Source: Clostridiales bacterium
GTDB lineage: Bacteria > Bacillota > Clostridia > Christensenellales > Pumilibacteraceae
NCBI GenBank assembly: GCA_029066805.1
Contig: JAIEFT010000034.1
Location: 1 to 48,040, forward strand
Reading direction: 5' to 3'
Length of the DNA: 48,040 bases
Shown in pieces: positions 16,373 to 48,040 of this stretch (positions are counted from its first letter, which is position 1; every line of letters begins with the position of its first letter). The translations under genes and the position numbers were made by a program. The notes below the pieces were generated by a model. That model had not been told where the DNA came from, did no database searches, and saw only the letters and a program-made list of their open reading frames with translations.

Positions 16373-16374
16373 AA

Positions 16375-18652: not shown

Positions 18653-18658
18653 AAGTGT

Positions 18659-22013: not shown

Positions 22014-22014
22014 G

Positions 22015-23061: not shown

Positions 23062-23097
23062 AAATTACCTCACATTAATCTTTATTCTAGTCTGATT

Positions 23098-25859: not shown

Positions 25860-25861
25860 GA

Positions 25862-29064: not shown

Positions 29065-29091
29065 TTGCGTTTATATATACTCCTTTTAAAC

Positions 29092-29139: not shown

Positions 29140-29882
29140 TCTTCTGTTTCTTCGGTAACGGTAGCGGTTTCGGTTATGGATTCTTCGTCCGGCTCTTCAC
29201 TATTATCTTGAAAATCGATATTATCGTCAGAGACTTCTTCAGTAGCAGCCGCTTCACTTTCGTTGTCAATATCGATATTCTCATGCTTATGAAGCTCGCC
29301 TGTACCGCCCTCGACTACACCCTCATGTTTAAACACGGCTTTTATCGTTCCGAAAAAGCATTTGCAATCAAAGGCAAAACTCAGTTTTTCCACATACTCG
29401 CCGTCAAGCGCCGCTTTGACGGGGATTTCAAGCTCATCACGCCCGTTGATCTGCGCCCAGCCCGTGAGCCCGGGTTTAATATTGTTTGCGCCGTATTTAT
29501 CGCGCTCAGCTATCAAATCGTCCTGATTCCAGAGTGCGGGGCGCGGACCGATTATACTCATTTTGCCAATTAGGATATTCCAAATTTGCGGCAATTCGTC
29601 AATTGACGTCTTACGCAAAATTTTGCCAAATCGCGTGATATACTGCTCCGGGTTTTCAAGTAAATGCGTCGGAATATCAGGCGTTTTGGTTTTCATCGTT
29701 CTAAATTTGATCAGTCGGAACAACTTTTTATTCTTCCCGACGCGCTTTTGAGTAAAGAAAATCGGACCGGGATCGTCAATAAAAATTATTATCCCGAAAA
29801 TTATAAAAAACGGGAACAGTATGATTGAGCCGATCAATGACAATATAAAATCGAATATTCTTTTGAAAAAATGCTTATACAT
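29136..29882 (-). CDS. Undecaprenyl-phosphate sugar-1-phosphate transferase (initiating enzyme)
   Basis: This enzyme starts the repeat unit by loading a sugar phosphate on the lipid carrier. The 248-residue protein has the short (monotopic/PglC-like) form: a hydrophobic hairpin at about 13-36, then DPGPIFFTQKRVGKN, FRLIKFRTMK, TSIDELPQIWNIL and MSIIGPRP, and KPGLTGWAQINGRDE. The last 50 residues are an acidic low-complexity tail not normally seen in the family. It is the first gene of the operon, about 315 bases downstream of the promoter. GAGGA lies eight bases before the ATG. The sugar could be a UDP-linked hexose or a 6-deoxy-N-acetyl sugar. Confidence 0.93.
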   Translation of the reverse strand: MYKHFFKRIFDFILSLIGSIILFPFFIIFGIIIFIDDPGPIFFTQKRVGKNKKLFRLIKFRTMKTKTPDIPTHLLENPEQYITRFGKILRKTSIDELPQIWNILIGKMSIIGPRPALWNQDDLIAERDKYGANNIKPGLTGWAQINGRDELEIPVKAALDGEYVEKLSFAFDCKCFFGTIKAVFKHEGVVEGGTGELHKHENIDIDNESEAAATEEVSDDNIDFQDNSEEPDEESITETATVTEETEE

Positions 29883-30203
29883 TACTATCCGTCCTCAAAC
29901 ACTGACTTCGCTATATTTGAGTTTTTTCGTAGGCATAAAACCGATATTCCGCCAGGCAAGTCCGCAATCGAGTTGTTCAATACAACAAAATACGCCGTTG
30001 CATATCACAAACCCAATCTACCGCCTAATTTTTCGTGTGCTTCGCCAATTCGAGTATAAAAGCATACTCGAATTTGTCTTTGGTATATCCACCGAAGCTA
30101 CTGCCGAGATCAAGCCTACGAGCATTTACTTCGGTTTCATGTCGGTGAAGCGCACCGTCGCAAACGTACGCCTAAGGTAAAAAGGCACACATTTACAAAT
30201 CTC
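29883..30203 (-). promoter_or_regulatory. Long 5' leader of the polysaccharide operon
   Basis: About 315 bases separate the promoter from the first gene. On the minus strand the leader holds a CGGTG-CGCTT-CACCG hairpin, an 11-bp stem (30047-30057 with 30064-30074), a GTTGT-ATTGA-ACAAC hairpin and a possible 13-codon reading frame, MPTKKLKYSEVSV (29895-29936), whose stop overlaps the ribosome site of the sugar-transferase gene. No known riboswitch was recognised. Leaders of this size before long polysaccharide operons often act in antitermination, which is inference here. Confidence 0.5.
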
Positions 30204-31216: not shown

Positions 31217-31924
31217 TTATATTTGCAAGGCTTTTGAAATATCTTTTTTGAGCCTATATATAATCTTTTTTTCCAAACGCGAAATATACGATTGCGATAT
31301 GCCCAAGAGGTCGGCGACTTCCTTTTGGGTTTTTTCGCTCTTTCCGCCAAGTCCAAACCGCATTTGCATGATAACGCGCTCGCGACTGTTAAGCCGTTCC
31401 AACGCTTCGTTAAGCAATCTGCATTCGGCTTCGTTTTCCAGTTCCTTACCCACCGCGTCGGGGTCTGTGCCCAATATATCCGCCATTACAAGCTCGTTTC
31501 CGTCGGCGTCCACGTTGAGCGGCTCGTCCAACGATACTTCGGCACGTAGCCGCACCACTCGCCTTAAGTGCATGAGTATCTCGTTTTCTATACACCGCGA
31601 TGCGTACGTAGCAAGCTTGATATTCTTGTCCGAGTCGAATGAGTTTACCGCCTTGATAAGTCCCACCGTACCGATAGAAATCAAGTCCTCGACGTCCACA
31701 CCGGTATTGTCGAACTTGCGCGCTATATACACGACAAGCCTAAGATTGTGCTCAATCAGCAGCGCTTTGACGGTGGGGTCGGTTTTGAGCCGAGCGATAG
31801 CGTCCGCCTCCTCCTGCGGTTCGAGCGGGTGCGGTAAGCCCTCACCCGCAGTTATGTACTCAAGGTCGCAGTCGCTCTTTTTTAGCGCGCACTTAATAGC
31901 CGCAAGAATTGTCTTTAAAATCAT
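31217..31924 (-). CDS. sigE: Sporulation sigma factor SigE (pro-sigma-E)
   Basis: Sigma-E directs early mother-cell transcription. The 235-residue protein has a short hydrophobic and basic pro-sequence (about residues 1-20), then [17 protein letters not shown], region 2 ([32 protein letters not shown] split by the usual breaks; [20 protein letters not shown]), the [15 protein letters not shown] block and region 4 (MRFGLGG...[20 protein letters not shown]). The pro-sequence is shorter than the 27 residues of Bacillus. It overlaps spoIIGA as ATGA, so the processing protease and its substrate are made together. Confidence 0.97.
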
Positions 31925-32745
31925 ACGCCCTCCGTCATCGCAGTAGGATTTAACAGCATTTCGTGCAAGTCGGAAAACCGCTTGCCCTGCCCGCCTACAA
32001 GTCCTACCATTGCATTTATTTTATGCCCGTGCCTGTCCGAATAGACCGTAATCGCCGTCGGTTCGACAAGATAAATTACAGTCTCGCCCGCAGGCGTGCG
32101 CGCCGTCATGGTGCGGAGCTTGGGCAAAGTTTTGGCAAACTTGACCGCCGCCGTGCCGTCCAGCTTTTCCGTAAACCTATCGATATCGGTTATGACCACC
32201 GGCAAACCCGAGCGCGCGTCGAACACACAGTTGCCGGTATCCAAAAACGCCGCAAACTTGAGCGTAGTGTCAAACACCGATACTTCCGTTCCGTACTCGT
32301 ACGGCGCGCGTGACATGGGCACGCGCATACGCTTTATGCAATACCGCACAGCCATGTAAGCTATCAATCCACACAGTAGCACTAAACATATGGGATAGCG
32401 CATAACAAACGCCTCAACGTTTTTTCCGCCGCACAGACACAGCATGACGGCATAGCACGCCCCGCCGAATGCAAACGTACAGCCCAAAAACATCACCGCC
32501 GCAACCAAAGCACGCGGGGTTTTGAAAAACATGATAAAACTAAGCACGACCCACAGCATAAGCTTGACGGCGAGCGATACAAGAATTCCGTCGATAAACG
32601 GATAAAATACCGCAACCGTCGTCCCAACTATCGCTGCGACCAAAAGCCGCCAAAGCTTTACACGATTGTGACACATCCGCGTTGCGGCAGAGCCCGCAAG
32701 GTATGTCAGTAAAAAATTATCTGCTATTACAAATTCTATGTACAT
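31921..32745 (-). CDS. spoIIGA: Pro-sigma-E processing protease SpoIIGA
   Basis: SpoIIGA is a membrane aspartic protease that cleaves pro-sigma-E. The 274-residue protein starts [18 protein letters not shown] and has five hydrophobic segments up to about residue 140. The protease domain follows, with the catalytic motif FLDTGNCV near residue 172 and LPVVITDID. Length is slightly shorter than the Bacillus protein. GAGGTTT precedes the ATG. The promoter upstream has a weak -35 flanked by Spo0A-like boxes, as expected for this operon. Confidence 0.95.
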
Positions 32746-33000: not shown

Positions 33001-33684
33001 ATGGAAGATAAGAAAGAATCAATATTCCCTGTAAATGCCGATAGTAAATCGTCTGTCATAATATTTCTCATTGCATTAACGTTGATTTTTGGATTGACGT
33101 TTTCGCTTTGGGGAATATGGCTGATCGAAATATATGCAGTGAGAATGTGCCTTACGTTGCTCGTGATTGCGTCGTTTGCGGTAGTCGCCTTTGTTGCTAT
33201 GAAGCTAACGGCGCAGGAAAGCAAACTGCTGCCCACTAAAAACAGATTGTGGCTACAAATCCTGATCGGACTTGCGATTGCCGCAGTGTTATGCCTATTG
33301 ATGGGAATTGTTCCGATTTTATGCGGCACAAGCATCGTCGGTTCTCATACAGACCCGTCCGCAGGCTATTTGGCAATTTCAGCCGTACAAGATATTCTTT
33401 TTGTGGGTGTGTGCGAGGAAATCGCTTTTCGCGGTTATGTACAGAATCAGTTTGAAATTTGGTTAAAAAAATGCAAATGGCTTGCGCCGCTGATAGCCGC
33501 CGTATTGTTCGGACTGTGGCATATAATCAACGGAAGTCTGATTCAAGTGCTTTTCACTACTCTTGCCGGTTGTGTGTTTGGATATTTCAAATATTTTGTA
33601 AAAGACTGCTCACTGTTATCGGTGATCATTGCACACGGACTATATGATTTTTCTTTAGTGCTTTTAACTTGCTTTATGCTATAG
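33001..33684 (+). CDS. CPBP-family intramembrane metalloprotease
   Basis: A 227-residue membrane protein with about seven hydrophobic segments. The Abi/CPBP glutamate motif EEIAFRGYVQNQF lies near residue 140, and the two histidine motifs are in FGLWHIINGS and the final IIAHGLYDFS. Members cleave prenylated or small membrane peptides, or act in bacteriocin immunity; the substrate here is unknown. It is a single-gene unit on the plus strand with its own promoter and terminator. It splits what would otherwise be a continuous ftsZ to spoIIGA neighbourhood. Confidence 0.9.
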   Translation: MEDKKESIFPVNADSKSSVIIFLIALTLIFGLTFSLWGIWLIEIYAVRMCLTLLVIASFAVVAFVAMKLTAQESKLLPTKNRLWLQILIGLAIAAVLCLLMGIVPILCGTSIVGSHTDPSAGYLAISAVQDILFVGVCEEIAFRGYVQNQFEIWLKKCKWLAPLIAAVLFGLWHIINGSLIQVLFTTLAGCVFGYFKYFVKDCSLLSVIIAHGLYDFSLVLLTCFML

Positions 33685-33829: not shown

Positions 33830-35068
33830 TTATCCGCGGCGTTTGCGAAGCTTATCCAACCACGACAAGTCGTTGTCGTCGTCCATACTGACGTAGCCGT
33901 TGTCAGGTCTTTGCGGCTGAACGGGTTGTTGCGGGCGCGGCGGCTGTTGTACGGGCTGTTGCGGCTGATACGCGCCTGCAAACAGCGGCGGCACATTATT
34001 GCCACCCTGCGGGGCTGCTTGATGCTGTGCCGGCTGTTGCGTACCCAAAGGCTGCAAAGCGGGTCGAGCGGGCTGTTGCGACTGCCCTGCTCCGCCGGCT
34101 ACGCGATTAAAGCCCGTTGCAATAATAGTGACCTGTAACTGGTCTTTCAATTCCGGGACGATCGCGTGTCCAAACACGATATTGGCTTCCTTAGCGCAGA
34201 TGTCGCGCACAAGCTCGACGGCCTGCGACACCTCGTTCATCTTGACTTCTCTGCCCTCTATCTGAACGATCGCGCGAGTTGCGCCCTCAATCGAAGTGTC
34301 GAGTACCGTGTTGTTTACCGCGCGCTTAACGGCTTCCACAGCGCGGTTAGTGCCGCTTGCTCTGCCTATAGCCATAATTGCGTCGCCGCCGTCCTCAAGC
34401 ACGGTATGTATATCGGCAAAGTCGACGTTGATTTTGCCGGGGTTGACGATTATATCGGTAAGCGCCTGCACGCCCTGGCGCAGGATGTCGTCGGCGTACT
34501 TAAACGCTTCCTGTGTGGTCAAATCCTTAGCGACAGCAGCAAGCCGTTCGTTGGGAACAATTATAATAGAGTCCACAAACTTGCGTAGGTTTGCAATGCC
34601 CTCTATAGCGTTGCGCATGCGAACTTCGCCCTCGAACTTAAACGGCGTTGTTACAAACGCTACGACAAGCTTATCAAGGTTGTGCGCAATCTCGGCAATA
34701 ACGGGCGCTGCACCCGTGCCTGTTCCGCCGCCCATACCCGCGGTGATAAACACCAAATCCATGTCCTTGATGAGTTTGGTAAGCGTTTCGCGGCATTCCT
34801 CGGCGGCGAGCCTGCCCTTTTCGGGGTTCGCGCCCGCACCGTAGCCCTTGGTTATGTTAGAACCGATCTGGACTCTGCGCGTAGCCTTAGAAATACGAAG
34901 CGCTTGCTTATCGGTATTGATCGCCATGAAAACGTTGACCTTTACCTGCGCTTCAATCATATTATCAACAGCGTTGCTGCCACCGCCGCCAACGCCGACT
35001 ATCATTACTTTTACCGGCGAATTGGAATTGTCGTCAAGAAAATTCGCACCGTTCTGCATTTCCGCCAT
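33830..35068 (-). CDS. ftsZ: Cell division GTPase FtsZ
   Basis: FtsZ forms the cytokinetic ring. The 412-residue protein has the nucleotide loop GVGGGGSNAV (25-34), the tubulin signature GGGTGTGAAP (about 112-121) and the T7-loop NVDFADIHTVL. After residue 320 comes a Pro/Gln-rich linker of about 75 residues. The C-terminal peptide reads DNDLSWLDKLRKRRG, which differs from the common DIPxFLR(R/N) form by having Trp-Leu-Asp in its centre. AAAGGAG precedes the ATG. It follows ftsA after six bases. Confidence 0.97.
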   Translation of the reverse strand: MAEMQNGANFLDDNSNSPVKVMIVGVGGGGSNAVDNMIEAQVKVNVFMAINTDKQALRISKATRRVQIGSNITKGYGAGANPEKGRLAAEECRETLTKLIKDMDLVFITAGMGGGTGTGAAPVIAEIAHNLDKLVVAFVTTPFKFEGEVRMRNAIEGIANLRKFVDSIIIVPNERLAAVAKDLTTQEAFKYADDILRQGVQALTDIIVNPGKINVDFADIHTVLEDGGDAIMAIGRASGTNRAVEAVKRAVNNTVLDTSIEGATRAIVQIEGREVKMNEVSQAVELVRDICAKEANIVFGHAIVPELKDQLQVTIIATGFNRVAGGAGQSQQPARPALQPLGTQQPAQHQAAPQGGNNVPPLFAGAYQPQQPVQQPPRPQQPVQPQRPDNGYVSMDDDNDLSWLDKLRKRRG

Positions 35069-35074
35069 ACCTAC

Positions 35075-36286
35075 TTACTCCTTTTGTTTACGTTTGGAAA
35101 ACCAACGTTTAAATCTGTTTAACATGCCGCCGCTTGCGGGATTGCTTAATAGCACCATGTTCATTATACCGAGCGCAGAAGAAAGCTGCGCGCTGTCCAG
35201 CATGGGTTGCAGCGGCTTGACTGCTTCCGCCTCGCGCGCAAGACATTCCGACAAATACTCAATTGCGCCGCGCATCGTGCACAGCCCGCCGCCCGTAACC
35301 GATAGCGGGGTGTAGTCGGGATAGTCGTAATCGCACTGCTTTAGCGCCTTTTGTATGTACCGCGCAAACCGCTCGATCTCCAGCCGCACCACCAAGTTGG
35401 TTTCGGCTACGTCAAACCGCTTCAAATCGTTTTCCACTTCTATCTCGTACTCGGTCTGAACAACCGGCGGCTCTTCCTCGTCCTCGGGCGGAACAAAGTC
35501 AGGCTCGAGCGAAAGAATAACCTTGCGCTTTAGTTGCTCGGCTTGCTTGAGCGGAATATCAAACTTGTCCGCAAGCGCAGCGGTTATGCGCGCCCCGCCC
35601 CACGGAAAGTAGTTCTGCACGCAAATACCGTCGCCTCTTCCTATCGTGAGCGCTGTACCGAGCGCACCGACGTCCGCGAGCATGACGCACTTGTCGCGCC
35701 TAAAATCATCGAATAACAACATAATCTCGGCGAGCGACGCGGAAAGAAACTCGGTCTCGACTTCCGCCATGCTAGCCGCAGCAGCTACGTCCGCCATAAA
35801 ATCGTTGCGCGCGAGTATGTACGATATGCTCCCGCCGAGCTTGGTAGACATCATGCCTACGGGTTCTATCAGCTTGCGCTCGTTGTCCAGAGTGTAATAT
35901 ACGGGTTGCATGTTGACGACCGTCCAATTCGGGTCATCGTCGAACGCATTGCCGCTGTCTAAAAGCGCTTGAACGTCCTGTTCGGTAACTCTGCGCTTTT
36001 TATTCAGCGAGATGCTGTTGTTCACTATGTAGCACTTGGAAAACTCGTTAGGTACGCCTACGTACAGCTTGTCTATCTTTTGCTGAGCGCGTGACTCCGC
36101 ACCGGAAATAGCCTGTCCGATGCAGTGCGACAACCGCTCTTTGTCGAGCCATGCGCCACGCACAAAACCGACATACTCGCACACCCCGATACCGTCAATG
36201 TTGATCGAGTCGTTTATGCCGCGGCTACCGATCAAGACGGTTATCTTGCTCGTGCCGAAATCCAAAATTGCAACGCTTTGTTTCAA
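35075..36286 (-). CDS. ftsA: Cell division protein FtsA
   Basis: FtsA is the actin-like membrane anchor for FtsZ. The 403-residue protein has VAILDFGTSKITVLIG at the N-terminus, LADVGALGTALTIG as the second phosphate site, and TGGGLCTMRG. An acidic insertion (PPEDEEEPP) lies near residue 280. The last 20 residues form a basic amphipathic helix (GMLNRFKRWFSKRK), the usual membrane tether. The initiation codon is TTG with AGGGG upstream, and it has a promoter of its own separating it from ftsQ. Confidence 0.94.
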   Translation of the reverse strand: MKQSVAILDFGTSKITVLIGSRGINDSINIDGIGVCEYVGFVRGAWLDKERLSHCIGQAISGAESRAQQKIDKLYVGVPNEFSKCYIVNNSISLNKKRRVTEQDVQALLDSGNAFDDDPNWTVVNMQPVYYTLDNERKLIEPVGMMSTKLGGSISYILARNDFMADVAAAASMAEVETEFLSASLAEIMLLFDDFRRDKCVMLADVGALGTALTIGRGDGICVQNYFPWGGARITAALADKFDIPLKQAEQLKRKVILSLEPDFVPPEDEEEPPVVQTEYEIEVENDLKRFDVAETNLVVRLEIERFARYIQKALKQCDYDYPDYTPLSVTGGGLCTMRGAIEYLSECLAREAEAVKPLQPMLDSAQLSSALGIMNMVLLSNPASGGMLNRFKRWFSKRKQKE

Positions 36287-36446: not shown

Positions 36447-37307
36447 TCAGTTTTCGACGGTGTCGTAGTGCCGCGCGTAGTAACCGTCATCGGTATAAAC
36501 GCTATCCCCGTCCTGCGCCGCGTTGTGCTTAAGGTACACACAGCGTATAGGATCACCCGCGCCATCACTCAGGTTGGGATACACCTTAATCAGTCCGTGC
36601 ACCTTGACTACGTCGGTGAACGACGGATCGGTCTTGGCATACACCGCAAAGCCGCGATCGAGCATGGCGGCAAAGTCACCGCCGTTATCGTGTATCTCTA
36701 TCGAACAGCCGGCGTTTGTGCGAATGTAAACATACCCCGCACGACGTAAATCGATAAAGCCGATAAGCTCGTTTATCTGATAGTCGATCATGCCCTTGGA
36801 GCGCAGGAACGCTATAATCTTATCGACATACCACCTATCCTTGCCGTTGTTGTCTTGGAAGTATTTGCCAACCGCTGCCGAGGTTGATCCCGCAGGCTTG
36901 ACCGTGAAGTAACCGGGAAGTAACGAATCGGACTCGCTACCTATCTTACCCGAAGAATAGCATTGATAATACTTGTTGCCGTTTTGGAACTGATAGAGCT
37001 TTTCGTATATAACATAGTTGATTGTGACGCGATCGGGAAAACTGCGCTTAACATTAACAACGCCGATCTCGGGATAAGCTTGCTCCACACGCTGCTTGAC
37101 TTCTGCCTCGTCTACAAAAAACATCGAACTGTTGTTCTTAATACCCGAGGCGGCAATTACGTTTTTGTCGTACAATTCTATCTGCGGATTCTCGTAGTAG
37201 CTGTAAGCGTCAACATGCCGAACAAGAAATGTCGCGCCGCAGACCACTACTATGACCACCAGCAACAACACAACTATTAATAATGCAATCAGCTTCTTGT
37301 TACGCAT
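36447..37307 (-). CDS. ftsQ: Cell division protein FtsQ/DivIB
   Basis: FtsQ/DivIB is a bitopic scaffold of the divisome. The 286-residue protein has a short basic N-terminus, one membrane span (about residues 6-30), a POTRA domain (about 40-115, ending in KRSFPDRVTINYVIYEK) and a beta domain to about 250 (YVYIRTNAGCSIEIHD). The Asp/Tyr-rich tail is short. It lies between murA and ftsA, the usual place in Firmicutes. Promoter spacing leaves only about two bases before the ATG, so the mRNA is probably leaderless. Confidence 0.88.
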   Translation of the reverse strand: MRNKKLIALLIVVLLLVVIVVVCGATFLVRHVDAYSYYENPQIELYDKNVIAASGIKNNSSMFFVDEAEVKQRVEQAYPEIGVVNVKRSFPDRVTINYVIYEKLYQFQNGNKYYQCYSSGKIGSESDSLLPGYFTVKPAGSTSAAVGKYFQDNNGKDRWYVDKIIAFLRSKGMIDYQINELIGFIDLRRAGYVYIRTNAGCSIEIHDNGGDFAAMLDRGFAVYAKTDPSFTDVVKVHGLIKVYPNLSDGAGDPIRCVYLKHNAAQDGDSVYTDDGYYARHYDTVEN

Positions 37308-37466: not shown

Positions 37467-38723
37467 TTAATTCTTAATTCTTTCGATCCTTCCGCCCAGC
37501 GCGGTAAACGACTGCTCGATACTCTCGTAACCGCGGTCGATATGCTCTGTACCGTATATCTCGGTTTTGCCATCTGCGGAGAGTGCGGCAATAACAAGCG
37601 CCGCACCTCCGCGAAGATCGCACGCCTTGACCGACGCACCGTGAAGCCGCTTTACTCCCGCCACCACCGCTATTCTGTCCTTGACCGTGATGTTAGCGCC
37701 CATCTTGACAAGCTCGGTCGTGTAGCCGAACCGATTTTCAAACAGGTTTTCCACTATGACCGAACTGCCGACGGCACACGCCAGTAGCGCGCAGAACTGC
37801 GGCTGCATATCCGTCGGGAATGCGGGATAAACATTTGTTTCCAGCTTATGAATCGCCTTTGGTCTGCCGTCCGCGCAAATGCGTACCGAACTGCCGCGCA
37901 CATAAAGCTTTGCACCCGTCTTTTTGAGCCTTTCGGTTATTCCGAACAGATGTTCGGGTACGACGTTCTTTACAGTTGCGCAACCACCCGTAGCCGCGAC
38001 AGCCGCGAGGAATGTCCCGGCGCAGATCCTATCCGGCATGGGCTTGTATGTACAACCGTGAAGCTTTTTTACTCCGCGCACGCGAATAATAGATCCGCCC
38101 GCGCCCGACACGTTTCCGCCCATAGCGTTTATAAAATTTGCAAGGTCTACAATCTCCGGTTCGCGCGCCGCATTTACTATCACCGTATCTCCGTCCAATA
38201 GCGCACCCGCCATCATCAGATTTTCGGTCGCGCCCACGGACGCAAAATCGAGATTGATGACCGCGCTTTTCATATCGCTGCCGTCACAGCAGATAACGCC
38301 GCCCTCGTCCTCGATTTTGACCGACAGCCCTTTCAGTCCCGATATATGTAAGTCTATGGGGCGAAGTCCTATCTCGCACCCGCCCGGATGGCTTATGTAT
38401 GCCCTTCTACAGCGCGAAAGAATTGAACCCAGTATAAATATAGACGAACGCAATTTGCCCGTTAAATCGGCGTTTATGACGTTTAGCGACACGTCGTGAC
38501 AGCAAACACGAAGATTATCGCCGATAAACTCCGCACTGCAACCCAAATGCCGCATGATGTTGAGCATGGCGTCGATGTCCTTTAGGTGCGGACACTTTTC
38601 GATAATAATGGGCTCATCGGTAAGAATACACGCCGCTATAATGGGGAGCGCCGCGTTCTTTGCTGTCTGCACGGAAATCTCGCCGCCGAGCGGCACACCG
38701 CCTTGTACTGTTAGTTTTTGCAT
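37467..38723 (-). CDS. murA: UDP-N-acetylglucosamine 1-carboxyvinyltransferase
   Basis: MurA adds enolpyruvate to UDP-GlcNAc, the first committed step of peptidoglycan synthesis. The 418-residue protein starts MQKLTVQGG, has Lys22-Asn23 (AKNAALP), and the active-site Cys116 in HPGGCEIGLRPIDLH, the fosfomycin target. TTVYPAFPTDMQPQ-like sequence appears as NVYPAFPTDMQPQ; LRGGAALVIAAL is near the end. The start at 38723 has AAGGTGG upstream; the frame extends 40 codons further but without family similarity. It heads the murA-ftsQ-ftsA-ftsZ cluster. Confidence 0.96.
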   Translation of the reverse strand: MQKLTVQGGVPLGGEISVQTAKNAALPIIAACILTDEPIIIEKCPHLKDIDAMLNIMRHLGCSAEFIGDNLRVCCHDVSLNVINADLTGKLRSSIFILGSILSRCRRAYISHPGGCEIGLRPIDLHISGLKGLSVKIEDEGGVICCDGSDMKSAVINLDFASVGATENLMMAGALLDGDTVIVNAAREPEIVDLANFINAMGGNVSGAGGSIIRVRGVKKLHGCTYKPMPDRICAGTFLAAVAATGGCATVKNVVPEHLFGITERLKKTGAKLYVRGSSVRICADGRPKAIHKLETNVYPAFPTDMQPQFCALLACAVGSSVIVENLFENRFGYTTELVKMGANITVKDRIAVVAGVKRLHGASVKACDLRGGAALVIAALSADGKTEIYGTEHIDRGYESIEQSFTALGGRIERIKN

Positions 38724-38835
38724 ACACCACCTTCTGTCAATTTTAGTATATGTGTACGCAAGCGCGGGCGTGCAAAAGTTCGCCGTCGTCAACTGATACA
38801 ATATATCCGTATTAGATATTCCGCACAACAAAAAA

Positions 38836-38865
38836 CTGTGCAACTCTATTTATAGGATTGCACAG
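38836..38865 (-). terminator. Terminator after the flavin reductase gene
   Basis: CTGTGCAA pairs with TTGCACAG around a 14-base loop; the minus-strand reading ends in six T. It lies ten bases past the reductase stop. Confidence 0.75.
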
Positions 38866-38874: not shown

Positions 38875-39438
38875 TTAAGATAATGCTTTTGCTATTTCGT
38901 TTATTTGCATGATATCATTGGCGTGATATGCTATTAAATCGTCTAGTTTGTCGGTTTGCGTTATTGAAACGCGCTTTACCGTTTTTATACCTAAATGCCC
39001 GTAATAATGCTCAATAGCGTTTAAAATAAGTTCGTTCTCTTGTTCCCTAACGCCCGCACGCACAGCTATTGCAATGCCTTGAATCGGCTTTTGCGCCGTT
39101 AATATTCTATTTGGATTGGTGTCGCCGTATGGCGTGGTTCTGTCAATCAAAGTCTTTAGCTGCGCGGGAATGTCCGCCCAATATGACGGCGCGGCAATAA
39201 CCACAATATCGGAAGACAAAATATCGTTAACTATCTTTTGGGCATCGTCGTTTTGCACGCACTTACCGTCGATATAACATTTTTTACAACCCTTACAAAA
39301 ATGCAGATCGGCGTCGCCCACGCAATACTTAACGATCTCTGCATTTTGTTTTATAGCAATACCGTTAACGAAGCTGTCTATTAAATAATTGCAGCTGCCG
39401 TTGTTGCGCGCACTGCCGTTGATACAAGTTACTTTCAT
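38875..39438 (-). CDS. Flavodoxin-fold NAD(P)H-dependent oxidoreductase
   Basis: A 187-residue flavodoxin-like protein of the NADPH-dependent FMN reductase group. The FMN phosphate loop is INGSARNNGSCNYL near the start. It is followed by the Cys cluster CKGCKKCYIDGKC (residues about 48-60), seen in iron-sulfur flavoprotein relatives, and by APSYWADIPAQLKTLIDR, the isoalloxazine contact region. The substrate is not predictable. GGAGGT lies six bases before the ATG. It stands alone between two terminators. Confidence 0.9.
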   Translation of the reverse strand: MKVTCINGSARNNGSCNYLIDSFVNGIAIKQNAEIVKYCVGDADLHFCKGCKKCYIDGKCVQNDDAQKIVNDILSSDIVVIAAPSYWADIPAQLKTLIDRTTPYGDTNPNRILTAQKPIQGIAIAVRAGVREQENELILNAIEHYYGHLGIKTVKRVSITQTDKLDDLIAYHANDIMQINEIAKALS

Positions 39439-39501: not shown

Positions 39502-42500
39502 TTATTCGTCGTCGTCCTTGTTGCCGTTGAGCCTTGAACGGAGCTTGTTAAGAACCAACTGGTTGGCGAGTCTGCGCACCTTGTCGGAGGCTTCCGTTTC
39601 CGCTATGGTGTTGAACTCGTGCGGAAGTATGTCGCGCAGGATTTCGTCTACTCTTTCCTCGCTTACTCCGCCGTCGCCGAGTTGTTCCACAAGCTGCTCC
39701 ATAATCAGCTTGTTAGCTACCTGCTTAGCCAGCCTATCCGCTACGTCCATCGTGTCCTTAGTTGCGGTGGGATTGAGCGACATATCGCCGTCGCCGCCGA
39801 GCAAACCTGCTTGATGCTCGATCAGAGCTTCAAAGTCGTCGTTTTCGGGCGCGGGAGTATTAATAACTACTTCCTCAACCTCCGGCTTATTCTGCTTTTG
39901 TGCGGGTTTCCTGCCGCGCTTTTTGCCTGTGCCGTTGCTTGCCGTACTTGTACCGCCTGTTTTAGCCGAGTTTTTCTGCCCGGGCTTTCTGCCACGCTTT
40001 TTGCCTGTGCTTGCGCTATTCGAGCTTGCCGCAGGTTTCTGTTCGGGCTGTTGAGGCTTTTCGGGCTCTATAATGCCGGCTATCTCGTTGAGTTGTTCCT
40101 TAAGGTCGGAAAGTGAATCCGATAAATCCTCGTCGGACTTTATGTCGCGCACTTTTTCGCGTTCGGCGAGCACTGTAATCTCGTCGCGCAGTCTTGATAT
40201 AGCGTCGAGTATGAGCGCGTTTTCCTGACTGGGCTTTTCACGACTGAGCTCTTCTCTAAGGTCTGCCAGCTCGGCAAGTATAGTATCGTTATCCGAAGCG
40301 CTGCCCGACTGAGCCATGACCTCGCGGAGTTTGGCTACCTCTTCCGCTACGGCGTCGCTGGACGCTATTTCGGCTTTGAGACTTTCTATCTCATCGGAGA
40401 TTTTGCTGCCGGCGTTCTGCGTTAAGTACTGATTCTGACGTTCCAAAAGGTGCGCCATTTCGGACATGAAGTTGAGCGTCGTCAAATCCGCGTCGCGCTG
40501 GTTTGCCATATCTGTGCGCAAATCGCCGAGTTCTTCCAAAATCTTATTGTTGGTCGCGTCGTTGCCAAGCGCAGCCACTCTGTCCGCAAGCGACTCAAAC
40601 ACGGCTTCACGCTTGTCGATTGCCGCCTTAAGCTTGCTAAGCTCGTCGGAGATAACCTCTATGTCGCTTGCAGAGCCTGCCGTAGCTACCTGGTCGCGGA
40701 GCGACGCTATCTCATCGAGAATGATATTGTTGTAGCTTTCGTAGTTAGATTCGCCCGACTCGGGATCGTTTACGTTAGCCATACTGATAGCAAATAATTG
40801 GTCGCGGAGCGACTGCACCTCTGTCATGAGCGTGTCGTCCGACTCACGGTCCGTTTCGCCGGCGATGCGCTTGACATCCTCTATCTGCTCACGCAAGGAC
40901 TGGAACTCGTCGCGCAATGCCAAAATCTCGTTCATCACGCCGAGGTCGGGCTCTTCCTTCAATGTCTGAACGTCCGCCTTGATAGCGGTTACGTCCTCGG
41001 CTACGCCGAACAGACTGTCGGACGACGAAAGCATGGCTTTGATTTCCGCAAGCTCGTCCTTGAGTGCCTGAACCTCTAAAGACGCCGCTCCGCCGCCGCT
41101 TTCTGCCGCTATGGTTGTGAGCGAACGCAGCTGCGCTATCTCGTCGCGTATCTCGCCAAGCTCGCTTGCATACCCGTGCTGTTCGGCTTGTGCCGCAAGC
41201 ATTTCTCGGATATCGTTTAGTACGCTCTCGTCAAGACCTGTGGTTTGAACGGGGCTATTCCCCACTGCCGCCACTTCGTCTTTGAGTGCGCGGATTTCGT
41301 CAATAAGCGTAGCATATGCAGTATCGCCTTCCGCGTTTACTGCGGGCTGCGCAACAGTCATGTCGCGTATGAGGTCTTTAAGCTCGTCTATCTGTACGGA
41401 AAGCACGTCTGTGCCGTCCGCCTTTAAGTGTTCGTTTTCTGCGCGGAGCGCTTCGATTTGGGCGCGCATTTCCGCCATTTCCGCGGCGTAATCGATAGGC
41501 GCCATATCCGTAAGCTTGGACTTGATTTCCGCCATTTCCGCTTCGAGCGCGTCAAAACGTTCGGAAAGTGCGCCCGTTGCCGCTTCGGCATCTTCCGCAA
41601 CACCGCCTTCTTGGACAAGCATGAGGTCCTGAAGCGTCGCGTTTACGGTTTCGAGCTGCTCCATTACCGGAGTAAGGTCGACTTGAACGGGCTCAGCAGT
41701 TTCAGCATCGCCGAACGTGTCGGTCTCGACTTCTGCGGGTTCTTGTGCAACACGCAGCTCGTCGAGCACGGCGCGGATTTCTTCTACTTGTTCCGCTATA
41801 GCGTTTATGCGATCGTTGCTGCCGAGAGCTTCCTCTATTCTGTCTATATCGTTCTTAAGATTGATTATTTCGTCGAGTACGATATTGAGCTCGTCCGCCG
41901 CCGAACTCTCGCCTTCCTCACCGTCGCCGCCGGCGATTGTCGTCCTGCGGCTGACAAGGTCTTTGAGCTCGTCGATACTGCCTGTGAGCGTAAGTTGATC
42001 GTTGCGAAGCGCGGTGATTTCGTCGAGCACCGTAAGCAGATCCTCCGAGCTTTCTTCCGCCTGCTCGGGCTGCTCGTCCTGCGGCTCGACTATACCCGTC
42101 GCATTGAGCACTTCGTCCTTGAACGCAAACACTTCGTCGCGCAACGACACGATCTCGTTAAGCACAAGATTGATTTCGCCGTCGGTTGCTTCCGACGAGT
42201 CGTCGGAAGTGGGAAGATTTGCAATATCCTCTCTGAGCGCGCGAATTTCGTCGAGAATGTTACCCGAAGAAATGGACGCGAGTTCGTTCTTTATAGACTC
42301 GAGTTCGCTCGACACTTCGTCCTGATCGACGATACGCGCTGCTTTTATGTCCTCGCGAAGTGACAGAATTTCTTCTACCGTGTCGTATTCCGACGGCGCG
42401 TCGAGTTTCTCCTTTATAGAGGAAAGCTCAGCAATAAGCGCCTGCATGGTGTCCGAATCGAGCTGTTCACCGTCGGTTTCGCCCCGGTCTTCCGCAGAAA

Positions 42501-45500
42501 GTCCCGACTCTATTGCGGCTTGAAGTTCGGCAAGCTGTGCGGAAATTCCGTCGATAGCTGCGACATTAACGTCGTTGACAGCTTGCGTGGACGCCTCGAT
42601 GTTGCCAAGGCGTTCGCGTATTTCGGCAATTTCGCCCAATAGCGCGTCGCGGGTGTCCTGATCCATACCAGAAGCGGACATATTTTCTTCCAGAGTGCTG
42701 ATATGAATTTCTTCTCTGATTCCGCTTACGGTGTCTATAATTTCTTGCTTGTTGTTTTCTGCGGTCTGCTCGTACTGCTCTATCCGCTCTAACACGAGCT
42801 TGATATCTTCGTTAGCGCCGTTTACCGCCTCTCTAAGTACGCCAATTTCTTCCGCAACAACTTGAGCGCCGTCATCGGCTACGTCTGCATTTTCCGCATT
42901 TGCGGCAAGCGATTCCGAAAGCGCATTGACCGCGTCGAGCACTGCCGCTACATTATCGCGGATTGTTACTACGTCCTCGGACTGCGGCATTAATGTGAGC
43001 GAGTCAAGTATGGCAAGCGTGTTGTCGCGAGTTACCACCACGTCCTCGGACTGCGGCATTAATGTGAGCGAGTCGAGCACGGCGTTTAAGTTGTCCTTAA
43101 TTCCCTCGAGTTCTTCCGAAGTTGTTACATCGGCAGTAGTTACATCTTCCTCAATTACTTCTTCGTCCTCGGCAACAGGCGTTTCGAGCCTATCGAGAAT
43201 GCTGTTTAACTGCTCGGATATGGGAGCTAAAGCGTCGAGCGTAGCGGTAGCAGCGTCACGTGCAGCAGCCGCGTTTTCGCCGATTGCGTTGATGTTTTCG
43301 CTTACGGAATTTACAGTATCCACAACTGCGGCAACGTTCTCGCCTACAGCGCTGATAGTGTCCGTAACCGACGTTACGTTTTCGCTTACCGAATTAACAT
43401 TATCGTTGATTACGGCAAAGTTGTCGTTTACAGCGACAAAGTTGTCGTTGATAGAAGCAATGCTATCGCTAACTGCCGCTACGCTATCCGTGATTGCGGA
43501 AAGCGTGTCCGACACAGTGGTTATGCTGTCGGTGACCGACGTGATAGTATCCGTCACTACCGCAACGTTATTGCTGATTTCGGTGACGGTTTCCTTGGTA
43601 GAAGCAGTATCTTCGGCAACAGTGTTTATAAGCGCGACGCGCGCCGCTATCTCGTCGAGGTAGCTGATAAACTTTTCTGTGTCCTGCACGGCCTCCGCAG
43701 CGTCGGGAATTTGCTCGCTCTCGGCAATTGCAAGCTCCGCCTGCTCGCGCAAGAACGCGATATCGTCAAGCAGCCGCTGTCTGTCCGTCGCGGCGGCGTC
43801 GGTGTTTGCCGCCGACAATTCCATAAACGAGCTTACGTCGGTGCGGAGCTGTTCGAGAGCTTCCGTCGTCGGAGACATGAGTATCGCGTCCGATACCGTT
43901 ACAAGCGAATCCTTAATAGCCTGCGTTTCCGCGAGGATTTCGGCTTTGGCGGCGTCGATTGTCTCTGCCGCGTCGGATGAGCCCGTTCCGTCGCCGATCT
44001 TGTTCATTATGTTTGTTTCGGACTCTATGATTACGTTGGTAACGTCCTCGTACAGCTTGTCAAACTGCGCTGTAATATCAGCAATCAATGAATTAACTTG
44101 TTCAGCAAGTTGCTCGGAAATTTCCGCAGTGCCGCCGATTGCCGCTATGTCAGCGCGAAGGTCGGATATACTGTTAAAAAACGCGTCGTATTCGTCGATC
44201 CTCGCTCTGATGTATCCGAGGTCGTCAAGCATGACTTGACGTTCTTCGTCCGACATTTCCGCACCACCCGTTGCAGGCGTTTCGACAGTAATGGGCTCTT
44301 GAAGTTTTTCGGAAATATCGACGATACGATTGGTTATGTCGATGTAGTTGTTACGCAGTTCTTCAAGCGCGCCCGAAATATCGTCGTTGCCTGTAGCGCT
44401 CTCTAACCTATTCTTAAGGTCGTCTACTGCGTAAAGTATCTGTTGGAGCGCAGCTTCGTCCGCGGACAGCTCGCCGTCACCCGACGCAGGGATAATTGTG
44501 GGTGCGGGTCTATCGAGCACTGCCGCCTTCAGTTCGTCAAGCTTGGTAAATAGTGACACACTGCCAACCGCTTTTGCGGGCTTGTACGATGCGGGCAAAT
44601 CAATTTCGGGCAAATCCAAAACGTCTGCTACCGTGATTGCGACAAGCCGCTCAACCATTTCCTTGACTGCGGCTTTATCGCCGTTTTCGTCAATAAGCTC
44701 GGTAGTGATGTCGCCTACCGTAGCGGCGTTTTCAGACTCGTACTTGTTGCTTTGAAGAGTATTTATTTCCGCTACCAGATCGGGCAGATAGTCGCCGTAT
44801 GATGTTACTGCGACAGAAGTTATCTTTTGTACCAGATTGAAGAAACGTTCGGCGCTGTCGCGCATAGCCGACGTGATTGTCGTCATGCCGCGTTCGGCAC
44901 AAAACTCGGCAACCGCGCCGAAAACTTGTTTGGTAAGCGGCTGATCGCCAAGCTCGTCGATGAGCGCATTTGTAGCTTCTATAAGATCAATAGCGTCGGG
45001 CTCGTTGCTGTCCGAAAGGCGCTTGACGTATGCGTATACAGAATTGAGCTTGTCTTTATATGATGCGGATTGCGAGTGAACATCGTATGAAACTTTTTTG
45101 AATTCATTTACAAGCTCGGAAATCGTTTGCGCGCGTTTTACCGCGTCCTCCGAAACATTGCCGATAACTGTTTTTATATCGTAAAGCTGGCGCAAAAGCT
45201 CGCTTGCGCTTATATCGGAAGAGCCGTTATTACTTGCAACTACTTGCGTTTGATTGCCGGGCGCGGCAGTGGGAACACTAACGCCCTCGAGCAGTGCTTT
45301 TAACGCCGCTATGTCGCCCGATAGCTTGCTCATTCCGTCGCCGTCAATGCTGCCGGCTGCTTTTTTCACGGACGAAACCGCGCCGCTAAGCTCCTTAGCG
45401 GACGGCATGTCGTCAAGCTGCTTTTTAAGCTGAGCTATATCGCCCTGCACACGCGCGTCCAAGTCGCGCATGGCACGCAAAATAGCCTCGTTAATTGAGA

Positions 45501-46119
45501 GTAACTTATCTAAACCGACTGTAGAAGTACCGCCCTCAACGCGCGCAGGTTCGTTACCGACCGGCAGTTCACCTTGAGGGCTTGACGCGTTTTTTAGTAG
45601 GTCGTCGATTTTACTCTGCAACCGTTGGATTTCAGCAGTGTACTGGGCTTCGGCAAACTTTTGGTCGCGCTGCATATCTTCCTTGATACGCGTGAGCTCC
45701 TTTTGCATTTCCAGACTGCTCTGATTACGAGCCAATTCGTCGCGCAAACGAGAAATTTCGTTGTACATTACAACCTCACTGCCCGCAGGCGGCGCGGTGG
45801 GCTGGTAAATGTACTGCGGCGGCATGATGGGCTGCGGCTGAATATTGGCAGGCGCAGCGGGAACCATTCCCCTCTTTAATTCGGCAAGCTCGTCAAGGAC
45901 CTTGTTAAGACGGTCGTCGTAGTAATCGTCGTTGTACCCGTCGTCGTAATCGTCTTCATAGCCCTCGTCGTCGTACTCTTCGTCGTCGTACTCTTCGTCG
46001 CCGTAATCCTCGTCGTCGTAGTCATCATCGTCGTACTCTTCGTCACGATCGATGAATTCTTCTTCTACGATTTCATCGTCATCTGCCAACGAAAAAGTCG
46101 TCTTGTCTTGGTTGTCCAT
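39502..46119 (-). CDS. Giant coiled-coil protein with acidic N-terminus and two AT-hook-like motifs
   Basis: A 2205-residue protein I do not recognise as a known family. Residues 1-70 are almost all Asp, Glu and Tyr. Residues about 85-115 are Pro/Gln-rich. From 120 to about 2000 it is predicted coiled coil, with many variants of EIxxLRDEI and DELxxLK. Residues 840-955 form about 15 seven-residue units of the type [DE][NST]VxxV[STN]. Two exact KKRGRKP motifs lie near 2038 and 2064 in a Lys/Ser/Gly-rich linker. The last 110 residues hold two similar helical blocks (DRLAKQVANKLIMEQL; VRRLANQLVLNKLRSRL). No signal peptide or membrane span. GAGGAA precedes the chosen ATG. DNA-linked scaffold is a guess. 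Confidence 0.85.
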   Translation of the reverse strand: MDNQDKTTFSLADDDEIVEEEFIDRDEEYDDDDYDDEDYGDEEYDDEEYDDEGYEDDYDDGYNDDYYDDRLNKVLDELAELKRGMVPAAPANIQPQPIMPPQYIYQPTAPPAGSEVVMYNEISRLRDELARNQSSLEMQKELTRIKEDMQRDQKFAEAQYTAEIQRLQSKIDDLLKNASSPQGELPVGNEPARVEGGTSTVGLDKLLSINEAILRAMRDLDARVQGDIAQLKKQLDDMPSAKELSGAVSSVKKAAGSIDGDGMSKLSGDIAALKALLEGVSVPTAAPGNQTQVVASNNGSSDISASELLRQLYDIKTVIGNVSEDAVKRAQTISELVNEFKKVSYDVHSQSASYKDKLNSVYAYVKRLSDSNEPDAIDLIEATNALIDELGDQPLTKQVFGAVAEFCAERGMTTITSAMRDSAERFFNLVQKITSVAVTSYGDYLPDLVAEINTLQSNKYESENAATVGDITTELIDENGDKAAVKEMVERLVAITVADVLDLPEIDLPASYKPAKAVGSVSLFTKLDELKAAVLDRPAPTIIPASGDGELSADEAALQQILYAVDDLKNRLESATGNDDISGALEELRNNYIDITNRIVDISEKLQEPITVETPATGGAEMSDEERQVMLDDLGYIRARIDEYDAFFNSISDLRADIAAIGGTAEISEQLAEQVNSLIADITAQFDKLYEDVTNVIIESETNIMNKIGDGTGSSDAAETIDAAKAEILAETQAIKDSLVTVSDAILMSPTTEALEQLRTDVSSFMELSAANTDAAATDRQRLLDDIAFLREQAELAIAESEQIPDAAEAVQDTEKFISYLDEIAARVALINTVAEDTASTKETVTEISNNVAVVTDTITSVTDSITTVSDTLSAITDSVAAVSDSIASINDNFVAVNDNFAVINDNVNSVSENVTSVTDTISAVGENVAAVVDTVNSVSENINAIGENAAAARDAATATLDALAPISEQLNSILDRLETPVAEDEEVIEEDVTTADVTTSEELEGIKDNLNAVLDSLTLMPQSEDVVVTRDNTLAILDSLTLMPQSEDVVTIRDNVAAVLDAVNALSESLAANAENADVADDGAQVVAEEIGVLREAVNGANEDIKLVLERIEQYEQTAENNKQEIIDTVSGIREEIHISTLEENMSASGMDQDTRDALLGEIAEIRERLGNIEASTQAVNDVNVAAIDGISAQLAELQAAIESGLSAEDRGETDGEQLDSDTMQALIAELSSIKEKLDAPSEYDTVEEILSLREDIKAARIVDQDEVSSELESIKNELASISSGNILDEIRALREDIANLPTSDDSSEATDGEINLVLNEIVSLRDEVFAFKDEVLNATGIVEPQDEQPEQAEESSEDLLTVLDEITALRNDQLTLTGSIDELKDLVSRRTTIAGGDGEEGESSAADELNIVLDEIINLKNDIDRIEEALGSNDRINAIAEQVEEIRAVLDELRVAQEPAEVETDTFGDAETAEPVQVDLTPVMEQLETVNATLQDLMLVQEGGVAEDAEAATGALSERFDALEAEMAEIKSKLTDMAPIDYAAEMAEMRAQIEALRAENEHLKADGTDVLSVQIDELKDLIRDMTVAQPAVNAEGDTAYATLIDEIRALKDEVAAVGNSPVQTTGLDESVLNDIREMLAAQAEQHGYASELGEIRDEIAQLRSLTTIAAESGGGAASLEVQALKDELAEIKAMLSSSDSLFGVAEDVTAIKADVQTLKEEPDLGVMNEILALRDEFQSLREQIEDVKRIAGETDRESDDTLMTEVQSLRDQLFAISMANVNDPESGESNYESYNNIILDEIASLRDQVATAGSASDIEVISDELSKLKAAIDKREAVFESLADRVAALGNDATNNKILEELGDLRTDMANQRDADLTTLNFMSEMAHLLERQNQYLTQNAGSKISDEIESLKAEIASSDAVAEEVAKLREVMAQSGSASDNDTILAELADLREELSREKPSQENALILDAISRLRDEITVLAEREKVRDIKSDEDLSDSLSDLKEQLNEIAGIIEPEKPQQPEQKPAASSNSASTGKKRGRKPGQKNSAKTGGTSTASNGTGKKRGRKPAQKQNKPEVEEVVINTPAPENDDFEALIEHQAGLLGGDGDMSLNPTATKDTMDVADRLAKQVANKLIMEQLVEQLGDGGVSEERVDEILRDILPHEFNTIAETEASDKVRRLANQLVLNKLRSRLNGNKDDDE

Positions 46120-46244: not shown

Positions 46245-48040
46245 TTACTTAGGGCGTTTAGGTGCTCCGGGACGTGCGCCCGGTCTTACACCGGGTCTCG
46301 CCGCACCGGGACGCGCTGCTCCGGGGCGTGCGCCCGGTCTTGCACCCGGTCTTGCCGCGCCGGGACGTGCTGCTCCGGGACGTGCGCCCGGTCTTGCACC
46401 CGGTCTTGCCGCGCCGGGACGTGCGCCGGGTCTTGCGCCCGCTTTGCGTCGAGGGATACGGTTGACGCGCTCGGTAACCTTGCGGACGACACGTTGCGGC
46501 TTTTTGGCGTTTTCGGCTTTTAACCGCGCTATCTCGCCGCTGTTCTGAATATCGTCCATGGTCTTGTTGTAGAAGTCCATAAGCTCGGTAGAACCGCGCT
46601 CGTCATCGTCGAACGTGAGCTGCAAGTTGTACAGCCGTTCACGAAGATTCTTGGCTTCCTCGTCGCCCTTAAGCTCCTTCATTTCGTTGCGAATGGCGAT
46701 AATCTGATCCCTGCGCAACGCAACCTTTTTGGCTATAGCTTCCGCACGCTCGGCGTCGGCTTTTTGGCGCGCCTCTTCTTCCTTGCGCTTATTCTCTTCC
46801 TCCAAACGCTTGGCTTCGGCTTCCTCTTCGGCTTTGCGGCGCATTTCTTCTATCTCTTCCTGCGCCTTGCGCTTAGCTTCTTCTGCCTCTACTTCAGCTT
46901 GACGTCTTGCTTCCTCGGCTTCTTCCTGCGCCTTGCGTTTAGCTTCTTCAGCATCGGCTTCGGCTTGACGCTTGGCTTCCTCGGCCTGCTCTTCGGCGAG
47001 GCGGCGAGCTTCCTCGGATTCCTCCAAAGCTTTGCGGCGAGCTTCTTCCGCCTCCGCAGCCATGGCTTCCTCCGCCTCTTTGCGCGCTTGCTCGGCGGCT
47101 TCTATATCCGCCTTTGCCTTTTCCTCGGCTTCCCTTCGTGCTTGCTCGGCGGCCTCGATAGCTTCTTGTGCAGCGCGCTCTGTCTCTAAGCGCGCTTGCT
47201 CGGCTTCTTCTTGTGCCTTGCGACGAGCTTCCTCCGCCTGTTCCTGCGCCTGTTGTGCGGCAAGACGCGCTTGTTCGGCTTCCATCTTGGAACGCTCGAG
47301 CTGCTTTTTGAGGTTCTCTGCCTCGATCTTGGTTTGATCTTTGCTTATTATACCACAGCCCGAAGTGATAAGGTCGAGCGGGTTGGTATTGTTGATAAAG
47401 TCGTCAAACGACTTGCACGACTGTTCAAACTCGTCGTTGGCTCTGTCAAGGTCGGCACGCGCGCGCTCAAGATGCTCGTCGTATTCCGCTTGAGCCTCCA
47501 TTTTACGCTTAGTTCCGTCAACATTAGCCTGTTCGAGCCTGGCTTTAAGCTCTTCGAGCTTGTCGGAAGTATCGCCCTGCGCAACCATAAGCTCGAGTTT
47601 TTCGTCCTCGCCTGCCGCTTCCATTTGCGCGTTGATATCGTCAAGCTGGGTCTGCACGCTCGCGATTTCCTCTTCCAGCTCGGAAACAGTGGCGGCGACT
47701 TCCATAGCTATCATGGTGACGTCGTTGGACGACGCAGACAAATCTTCGTACACGGCTTGAGCTGTGGCGACGGCTTTCTCAGCCTCTTCCTTGTCCTTTT
47801 CGCGCATTGCTTTGACAAGCTCGAACTCTATCGCGCCGATGACCTTATCGTCGGCCTTGATGACTTCCTCAAGCGGAATTTCGTTCTTGCCTATAAAGTC
47901 GTTTGCCTTGCGGCGTTGCGCGTTAAACTCGATGCTGAGATCGGACTTCTGCTTGGTAGTCTTGGTAATTTCGCGTTCAAGCTCGGACAAGCGCGCATTC
48001 GCGTCGGATATTTGAGCGTTGAGGTCGGCGATAATGCCGA
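46245..48040 (-). CDS. Ala/Glu/Arg-rich coiled-coil protein with Gly-Ala-Arg-Pro repeat tail, 5' end beyond window
   Basis: The frame is open to the window edge; at least 597 residues are present and the true start lies outside (an internal TTG at 47990 is not a convincing start). The visible N-terminal part is coiled coil with a short break around TNPLDLITSGCGIISKDQ. A single uninterrupted helix of about 220 residues follows, built of EEARRKAQEEAEQAR-type units. Next is a folded-looking block (RDQIIAIRNEMKELKGDEE; YNLQLTFDDDERG). The last 60 residues are tandem PGARPGA units, very basic. No membrane span is visible. It precedes the giant coiled-coil gene by 125 bases. Function unknown; such helices also occur in TolA-like and cytoskeletal proteins. 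Confidence 0.8.
   Translation of the reverse strand, partial: GIIADLNAQISDANARLSELEREITKTTKQKSDLSIEFNAQRRKANDFIGKNEIPLEEVIKADDKVIGAIEFELVKAMREKDKEEAEKAVATAQAVYEDLSASSNDVTMIAMEVAATVSELEEEIASVQTQLDDINAQMEAAGEDEKLELMVAQGDTSDKLEELKARLEQANVDGTKRKMEAQAEYDEHLERARADLDRANDEFEQSCKSFDDFINNTNPLDLITSGCGIISKDQTKIEAENLKKQLERSKMEAEQARLAAQQAQEQAEEARRKAQEEAEQARLETERAAQEAIEAAEQARREAEEKAKADIEAAEQARKEAEEAMAAEAEEARRKALEESEEARRLAEEQAEEAKRQAEADAEEAKRKAQEEAEEARRQAEVEAEEAKRKAQEEIEEMRRKAEEEAEAKRLEEENKRKEEEARQKADAERAEAIAKKVALRRDQIIAIRNEMKELKGDEEAKNLRERLYNLQLTFDDDERGSTELMDFYNKTMDDIQNSGEIARLKAENAKKPQRVVRKVTERVNRIPRRKAGARPGARPGAARPGARPGARPGAARPGAARPGARPGARPGAARPGAARPGVRPGARPGAPKRPK
46264..46425. repeat. Three 54-bp tandem repeats coding for PGARPGA units
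   Basis: Units begin at 46264, 46318 and 46372. The second and third are nearly identical and the first differs at several bases. Each codes for 18 residues of Pro, Gly, Ala and Arg, so copy number can change without breaking the frame. Confidence 0.85.

Follow-up and report, generated by a model that had tools for sequence, protein, structure and literature searches.

A giant acidic coiled-coil protein in the division and cell-wall cluster of Pumilibacteraceae: a candidate strut of an envelope-spanning scaffold

The minus strand of a 48,040-nucleotide stretch from a Clostridiales bacterium of the family Pumilibacteraceae (genus Anaerocaecibacter; assembly GCA_029066805.1, contig JAIEFT010000034.1, positions 1 to 48,040; the whole stretch is called the window below) encodes an acidic 2205-residue coiled-coil protein, here labeled c0. 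We give an even chance to the reading that c0 serves as the strut on the cytoplasmic side of an envelope-spanning scaffold of three proteins (c2-c1-c0) tied to division and wall synthesis, in which c1 and c2 are giant membrane proteins encoded beside it. In such a scaffold, the Asp/Glu/Tyr-rich head of c0 would bind the basic tail of c1 through charge and Arg-Tyr contacts, a helical domain and a signature module would contact a partner from division or wall synthesis, the coil would provide reach, and the C-terminal domain would oligomerize. Through this complex, the surface and membrane of the cell would be linked to a network in the cytoplasm, at a pole or at the site of division. The architecture, the joint occurrence of the three genes, the conserved slot, the selection on c0 and the retention of its modules are observed, and from them we infer the contacts, the place in the cell and the function. 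As an upper estimate, 1500 residues at 0.15 nm each would span about 220 nm if helical throughout; interruptions shorten this reach.

The open reading frame (ORF) extends from 46134 to 39502. Its first ATG (46134) yields 2210 residues, which is the numbering used here, while an ATG at 46119 with GAGGAA just upstream (46130-46125) yields exactly the 2205 residues that an earlier note on this DNA had given without a strand. Comparison with the homologue in genome G005 revealed 333, 209 and 931 differences at the three codon positions (2135 aligned codons), and homologues of about 2000-2350 residues were found across the window's genus; therefore, the gene is real and selected as a protein. c0 is under purifying selection, and its head, linker and C-terminal domain diverge less from the G005 homologue than the rod at codon positions 1 and 2. 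The head is as acidic as the earlier note had described: its most acidic 60 residues are about 80% Asp, Glu or Tyr and carry a net charge of about -37. The rod is acidic as well (D/E 21%, K/R 7.6%), and the basic linker near the C terminus is the sole net-basic stretch of the protein. Heptad periodicity occurs in blocks, with 37 of 77 overlapping segments significant (3.85 expected), and many G/S/P linkers break up the rod. Thus, of the roughly 1900 residues of coiled coil proposed before, a long heptad rod stands, but it is discontinuous, and residues ~329-505 are instead predicted to form a folded domain. AlphaFold2 modeled residues 300-560 with a mean predicted local distance difference test score (pLDDT) of 77 and a predicted template modeling score (pTM) of 0.64, with block means of 82-93 over residues 340-509. 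This helical domain, modeled at a pLDDT of about 90, gave no match in the PDB at E<=0.001. For the C-terminal domain, a three-helix model was obtained at low confidence (pLDDT 62, pTM 0.29); it is a possible oligomerization or docking module, and a weak relative is present in family f31. The protein encoded in the window has no transmembrane (TM) segments and is thus soluble, which together with its long heptad coil places it in the structural class of coiled-coil-rich scaffolds of the FilP/crescentin type. No Pfam or NCBIfam model reached its cut-off, in agreement with the previous failure to recognize a known family. Similarity to SMC/Rad50 proteins was weak and composition driven over the coil (TIGR02168, 34.4 bits against a cut-off of 567), and no ATPase domain was found with Pfam at E<=0.01; a DivIVA domain was likewise absent at E<=0.01.

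The position of the gene is conserved among division and cell-wall (dcw) genes. For 36 c0 loci, the contig continues downstream for at least 2 kb (nine more lie too near a contig end); in 30 of them, murA follows no more than 3.8 kb away on the same strand, and ftsA was also visible on that strand in 27 of these 30. No giant insert was present at the locus in six genomes of other families (L116, L117 and L119-L122; ORFs below 120 residues are unlisted), and murA directly followed ftsW in the four other-family genomes in which both were recognized, with the same limit on short ORFs. Since 30 of 36 loci share the slot and none of the six loci of other families shows a giant insert, most of the family has conserved this place in the division cluster, and calling it suggestive only, as had been done earlier, was too weak. 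c0 would stand out among division-cluster genes in being almost confined to one family. MreB and ParB were present in all eight genomes searched. DivIVA candidates were encoded elsewhere in six of the eight, five of them over the cut-off; the candidate of the window's own genome (G000) was under the cut-off, and none was found in G016 and G009. As three other c0 carriers have DivIVA over the cut-off, this is at most a hint at replacement of DivIVA.

The genes of the giant membrane proteins are located immediately upstream of c0. In its giant forms (~1600-1900 residues), c1 has a signal and an ectodomain of ~600 residues, followed after a single TM helix by a long coil in the cytoplasm, the conserved motif KVTERVN and an arginine-rich (RPGA)n tail. 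c2 (~1820-2030 residues) exposes RCC1 repeats on the outside, which scored over the cut-off in each of the two proteins scanned, and has a single TM helix close to its C terminus and a conserved cytoplasmic tail. Every c1 and c2 protein examined had a signal plus one more TM helix. Where the contig of a giant-form locus extends far enough, c1 lies directly before c0, except in G433 and G317, where an extra ORF of 179-206 residues resembling a second, free-standing acidic c0 head lies between them (L064 3392-3931 and L057 3114-3734, respectively). c2 precedes c1 wherever it is present and visible. In the window's own genome, c1 is split into two ORFs because a run of N (window 48038/L104 ~2090) lies inside it; the rest of c1 follows beyond this run, and then a 1904-residue c2 (L104 5356-11070). 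This c2 is a giant secreted protein with a C-proximal TM helix and a highly conserved cytoplasmic tail, which is unusual in a division cluster. Of 74 genomes of the family, 32 gave a match to the c0 C-terminal domain, 40 to the c1 motif and 35 to the c2 motif; 29 had all three and 31 had none. As a rule, c0 thus comes with both membrane proteins, although these matches include genomes that were the source of the profiles. Pumilibacter (g2) additionally encodes a second, shorter c1-like protein of ~470-620 residues elsewhere in the genome (G020:C1:164955, G200:C2:27151, G261:C16:104039, G335:C61:2457, G426:C142:446 and G388:C5:75119).

The charge of the most acidic 60-residue segment of the c0 head correlates inversely with that of the last 90 residues of c1 (Spearman rho -0.55, p 7e-4; 35 loci, 34 genomes). 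For this comparison, G018 was dropped because the start called for its c0 falls downstream of the head, and the c0 start of G379 was set by hand. Contacts between arginine and tyrosine are established chemistry, and we infer that the tyrosine-rich c0 head and the arginine-rich c1 tail would suit them. Judged by these sequences, the acidic head of c0 probably docks on the basic tail of c1.

The distribution of c0 is narrow. With the full-length protein as the query, 41 genomes were searched, and homologues were found in 20/20 members of the genus, in 4/5 other family members and, weakly, in 1/16 others. Scanning the genome collection for the C-terminal domain yielded 32 loci. Of 396 genomes of the order, 29 contained the signature module (alignment A5); every one of them belongs to the window's family, from which 33 genomes had been drawn. 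Some of the genomes tallied as matches had themselves supplied sequences for the profiles A2, A5 and A6 and so match necessarily; with A5, this applies to 9 of the 29 (G000, G017, G135, G056, G200, G163, G150, G232 and G211). A class-wide search of 391 genomes with the C-terminal domain returned the window's own genome and two weak matches that we read as chance. One genome of another family (G054) encodes a relative of the C-terminal domain (E 1.7e-8) and a c1-like neighbor ending in an RPGA-type tail; no murA was seen at this locus, and the signature module was undetected. Adjoining this pair is a gene for an 1842-residue protein with a zinc-ribbon-like N terminus, a long coil and C-terminal hydrophobic segments (L095 774-6302). 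Three named isolates carry c0 (Anaerocaecibacter muris, Pumilibacter muris and P. intestinalis, all Pumilibacteraceae), and by these searches the c0 family appears almost restricted to Pumilibacteraceae (Anaerocaecibacter, Pumilibacter).

Shorter homologues from other genera mostly occupy the same slot. They measure 1030-1134 and 983 residues in genus g27, 723-841 in g28, 837 in g26 (start uncertain), 636 in g30 and 109-129 in g24, all upstream of murA; a 264-residue homologue (G361, g31) lies on a contig without murA. The signature was detected in 14 of the 16 homologues examined from outside the genus (five of them, G163, G150, G024, G232 and G211, supplied profile rows) and was not detected in G344 and G054. 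The 109-129-residue forms of g24 scored 27.6-37.8 bits against the signature profile, compared to 18.0 bits for the best of 9000 shuffles. The helical domain was clear in 7 of the 16, namely, G023, which is in the profile, and G232, G211, G150, G344, G163 and G272, which are not. The C-terminal domain was clear in G023 and G022 (both in the profile) and weak in G054 and in G317, where it is cut. Thus, the signature module, having persisted longest, is the likeliest candidate for the core of c0. In a tree of murA, ftsA and ftsZ, the short forms fall among giant ones, although several deep nodes are weak; reduction from a large ancestor therefore appears likelier than growth. A single protein in a single slot ranges from ~110 to ~2350 residues, with the remnant in the shortest forms marking the probable core module, which renders the function and evolution of giant bacterial coiled coils testable.

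Several observations weigh against the proposed c2-c1-c0 scaffold. Some of the c1 matches counted are short paralogues or weak, and no c1 was found in the 14 genomes of g27, yet the c0 heads measured there are still acidic. In 6 of the 36 loci, murA was not nearby (G004, in which the contig ends at 3.1 kb, G022, G024, G317, G361 and G054). The dcw position can also result from hitch-hiking within a stable operon, and unrelated genes enter the gap before murA, e.g., an FMN reductase gene in the window; this gap evidently collects inserts, since other genomes carry different genes or nothing there. The charge correlation ignores relatedness and rests on few lineage changes, with the four genomes of g28, g30 and g31 counting as a single clade. 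Furthermore, the basic linker of c0 itself trends in the same sense as the c1 tail.

The best surviving alternative, although unlikely in our view, is a DNA-tethering rod in which two KKRGRKP motifs grip AT-rich DNA in its minor groove while the coil joins the nucleoid to the divisome or membrane in the manner of MatP-ZapB-ZapA. The linker holds exactly two copies of this string, as reported earlier (residues 2045 and 2071), which we take to resemble an AT-hook of human MeCP2. The motif is far above chance expectation: in 200,000 shuffles of the 72-residue linker, two RGRKP cores never occurred and one occurred in 65. With one c0 per genome and the truncated G007 dropped, at least one RGRKP was found in 15 of 19 genus members, with codons varying synonymously. 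The net-basic character of the linker and the dcw location fit such a rod as well, and RGR-type AT-hook-like motifs of H-NS and Lsr2 bind DNA (PMC6936261). These motifs share the RGR core and the basic context with c0 but reside in a C-terminal DNA-binding domain, whereas those of c0 lie in a low-complexity linker and in one genus among those examined (PMC6936261). The core was missing in 4 of 19 genus members, i.e., G011 (in the c0 used), G014, G017 and G018; another c0 in G011, whose genome is 7% contaminated, carries it once. Outside the genus, none of 21 loci had RGRKP or any RGR in the last 400 residues, although 15 of the 21 contained a basic 60-residue stretch of +8 or more, and the short homologues lacked AT-hook-like motifs. 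A core conserved across the family, as would mark an AT-hook protein, was thus not found. The rod is strongly acidic, the core reads RGRKP rather than RGRP, and the linker fragment gave no Pfam AT_hook match at E<=10, a search in which the HMMER filters can lose so short a motif. Because the motif is limited to the window's genus, DNA binding is improbable as the family's core function. Since the motif is kept there with synonymous codon variation, it may well bind DNA as a genus-level feature, and the linker may add a nucleoid contact in Anaerocaecibacter alone. Of the bridging rod suggested in the earlier note, a cytoplasmic strut toward the envelope and division machinery is supported by the solubility of c0, its membrane partners and its conserved slot, while the DNA-bridging part is weak.

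A self-assembling cytoskeletal filament of the FilP/crescentin kind, in which each c0 attaches by its acidic head to the basic linker of the next and c1 serves as the membrane anchor, strikes us as distinctly unlikely. Such head-to-tail assembly is nevertheless a live rival that fits the charge relation as well, because the basic linker of c0 changes likewise. Nearly all long forms have opposite charge blocks at their two ends, the heptads come in blocks, and the C-terminal helical domain is conserved; however, the acidic heads of g27 (-19 to -26, two measured) occur without a basic linker, and G/S/P linkers interrupt the rod often. It is quite improbable that c2 and c1 are surface proteins for adhesion or a gliding-like process, with c0 as their cytoplasmic platform and the division cluster as a mere neighbor. 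The giant ectodomains with RCC1 repeats would suit this role, and c0 is kept in g27 without detected c1 or c2, so that the three modules are partly separable. In contrast, g28 and g30 keep c0 and a TM-anchored c1 without an ectodomain in the same slot, and only c0, neither c1 nor c2, was found in g24; hence, the cytoplasmic part persists longest. We regard as quite doubtful the most far-reaching version of the envelope-spanning scaffold, a linker like the eukaryotic LINC complexes with c2/c1 ectodomains outside, charge-based coupling of Asp/Glu/Tyr head to Arg/Pro/Gly tail under the membrane, a strut of up to ~200 nm and, in Anaerocaecibacter, an AT-hook linker joining surface and division machinery to the nucleoid. 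A sporulation scaffold expressed with spoIIGA-sigE, e.g., an axial filament or engulfment structure, is highly improbable: the pair follows ftsZ in many c0 loci and lies directly after c0 in G023, but spoIIGA-sigE next to ftsZ is an ordinary arrangement in Clostridia.

In comparison to known systems, c0 fits the coiled-coil scaffold kind, yet it is a member of no family tested. If the proposal holds, c0 would work in the manner of coiled-coil linkers such as ZapB with MatP or of coiled-coil scaffolds attached to the membrane. With MatP-ZapB-ZapA, the Ter linkage of E. coli (PMC7246612, PMC6538776, PMC7188993), it would share a coiled-coil link from the division machinery to another structure. 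No sequence relation was seen, however, and DNA binding by c0 is only putative, with hooks unconserved in the family. ZapB, moreover, is a tiny protein. FilP, crescentin and other coiled-coil-rich bacterial scaffolds (PMC6599971, PMC2680258, PMC10873595) share with c0 a soluble head-rod-tail organization that is mostly coiled coil. c0 differs in being far longer, in its folded multihelix domain and D/E/Y head and in being encoded beside two giant membrane proteins in the dcw cluster. From SMC/Rad50 it is set apart by the absence of a detectable ATPase head. A possible parallel is offered by the HMW proteins of the Mycoplasma terminal organelle and the LINC complexes, which couple long coiled coils to surface proteins across a membrane but belong to another cell envelope. 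A LINC-like linker, if true, would be categorically new. The titles and abstract beginnings of the literature searched contained no account of a c0-c1-c2 system. The three-protein scaffold proposed here would be fixed in the division and cell-wall cluster of a cultured gut lineage.

Table 1. Features of c0 and neighboring genes in the window
Feature	Position	Strand	Basis
c0, acidic coiled-coil protein	39502..46119	-	ORF and ribosome-binding site, purifying selection, homologues
Asp/Glu/Tyr-rich acidic head, residues 6-75	45910..46119	-	Net charge; conserved in long forms
Conserved post-head segment (DDRLNKVLDELAELK ... MYNEISRLRDELARNQ)	45625..45909	-	Mean top-residue fraction 0.84-0.90, 17-sequence alignment
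Predicted folded all-helical domain, residues ~329-505	44620..45150	-	AlphaFold2; profile matches in homologues
Family signature module (NEILALRDEF ... LRDQLFAISMANV ... YESYNNIILDEI), ~50-residue signature	40654..40959	-	Alignment A5
Basic linker, within residues 2024-2095	39850..40065	-	Charge profile; low divergence at codon positions 1 and 2
KKRGRKP copy 1, residue 2045	39982..40002	-	Exact match
KKRGRKP copy 2, residue 2071	39904..39924	-	Exact match
C-terminal 80-residue helical domain	39505..39765	-	Alignments A1/A2; low-confidence three-helix model
c1, C-terminal 597 residues: coiled coil, KVTERVN motif, (RPGA)n basic tail	46245..48038	-	Gene runs on past the window end through a run of N
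FMN reductase, variable insert between c0 and murA	38875..39438	-	Pfam FMN_red; GC content at third codon positions 0.44 vs ~0.6
murA	37467..38843	-	Named from sequence read; synteny anchor
divIB (ftsQ-like)	36447..37307	-	Named from position and TM-containing sequence
ftsA	35075..36286	-	Named from sequence read; as query found in 20/20 genomes, one weakly
ftsZ	33830..35068	-	Named from sequence read; synteny
spoIIGA-sigE pair	31217..32745	-	Named from sequence read; synteny

Upstream of c2, a divergent serC-serA pair was found in several loci (L091, L093 and L097), and further upstream in L090 and L091 lie membrane genes, ftsW and mur genes, all named from the sequence read. In G023 (L013), spoIIGA and sigE follow c0 without murA-divIB-ftsA-ftsZ in between. 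Within the window, a gene for an Rce1-like (CPBP-type) protease is located between ftsZ and spoIIGA on the opposite strand (33001-33684, +). The region ~12900-30000 (-) holds a surface-polysaccharide-like cluster encoding a GDP-mannose dehydratase-like protein, a UDP-GlcNAc 2-epimerase and a nucleotidyltransferase-aminotransferase fusion, together with ORFs that, going by the sequence read, resemble glycosyltransferases and sugar transferases.

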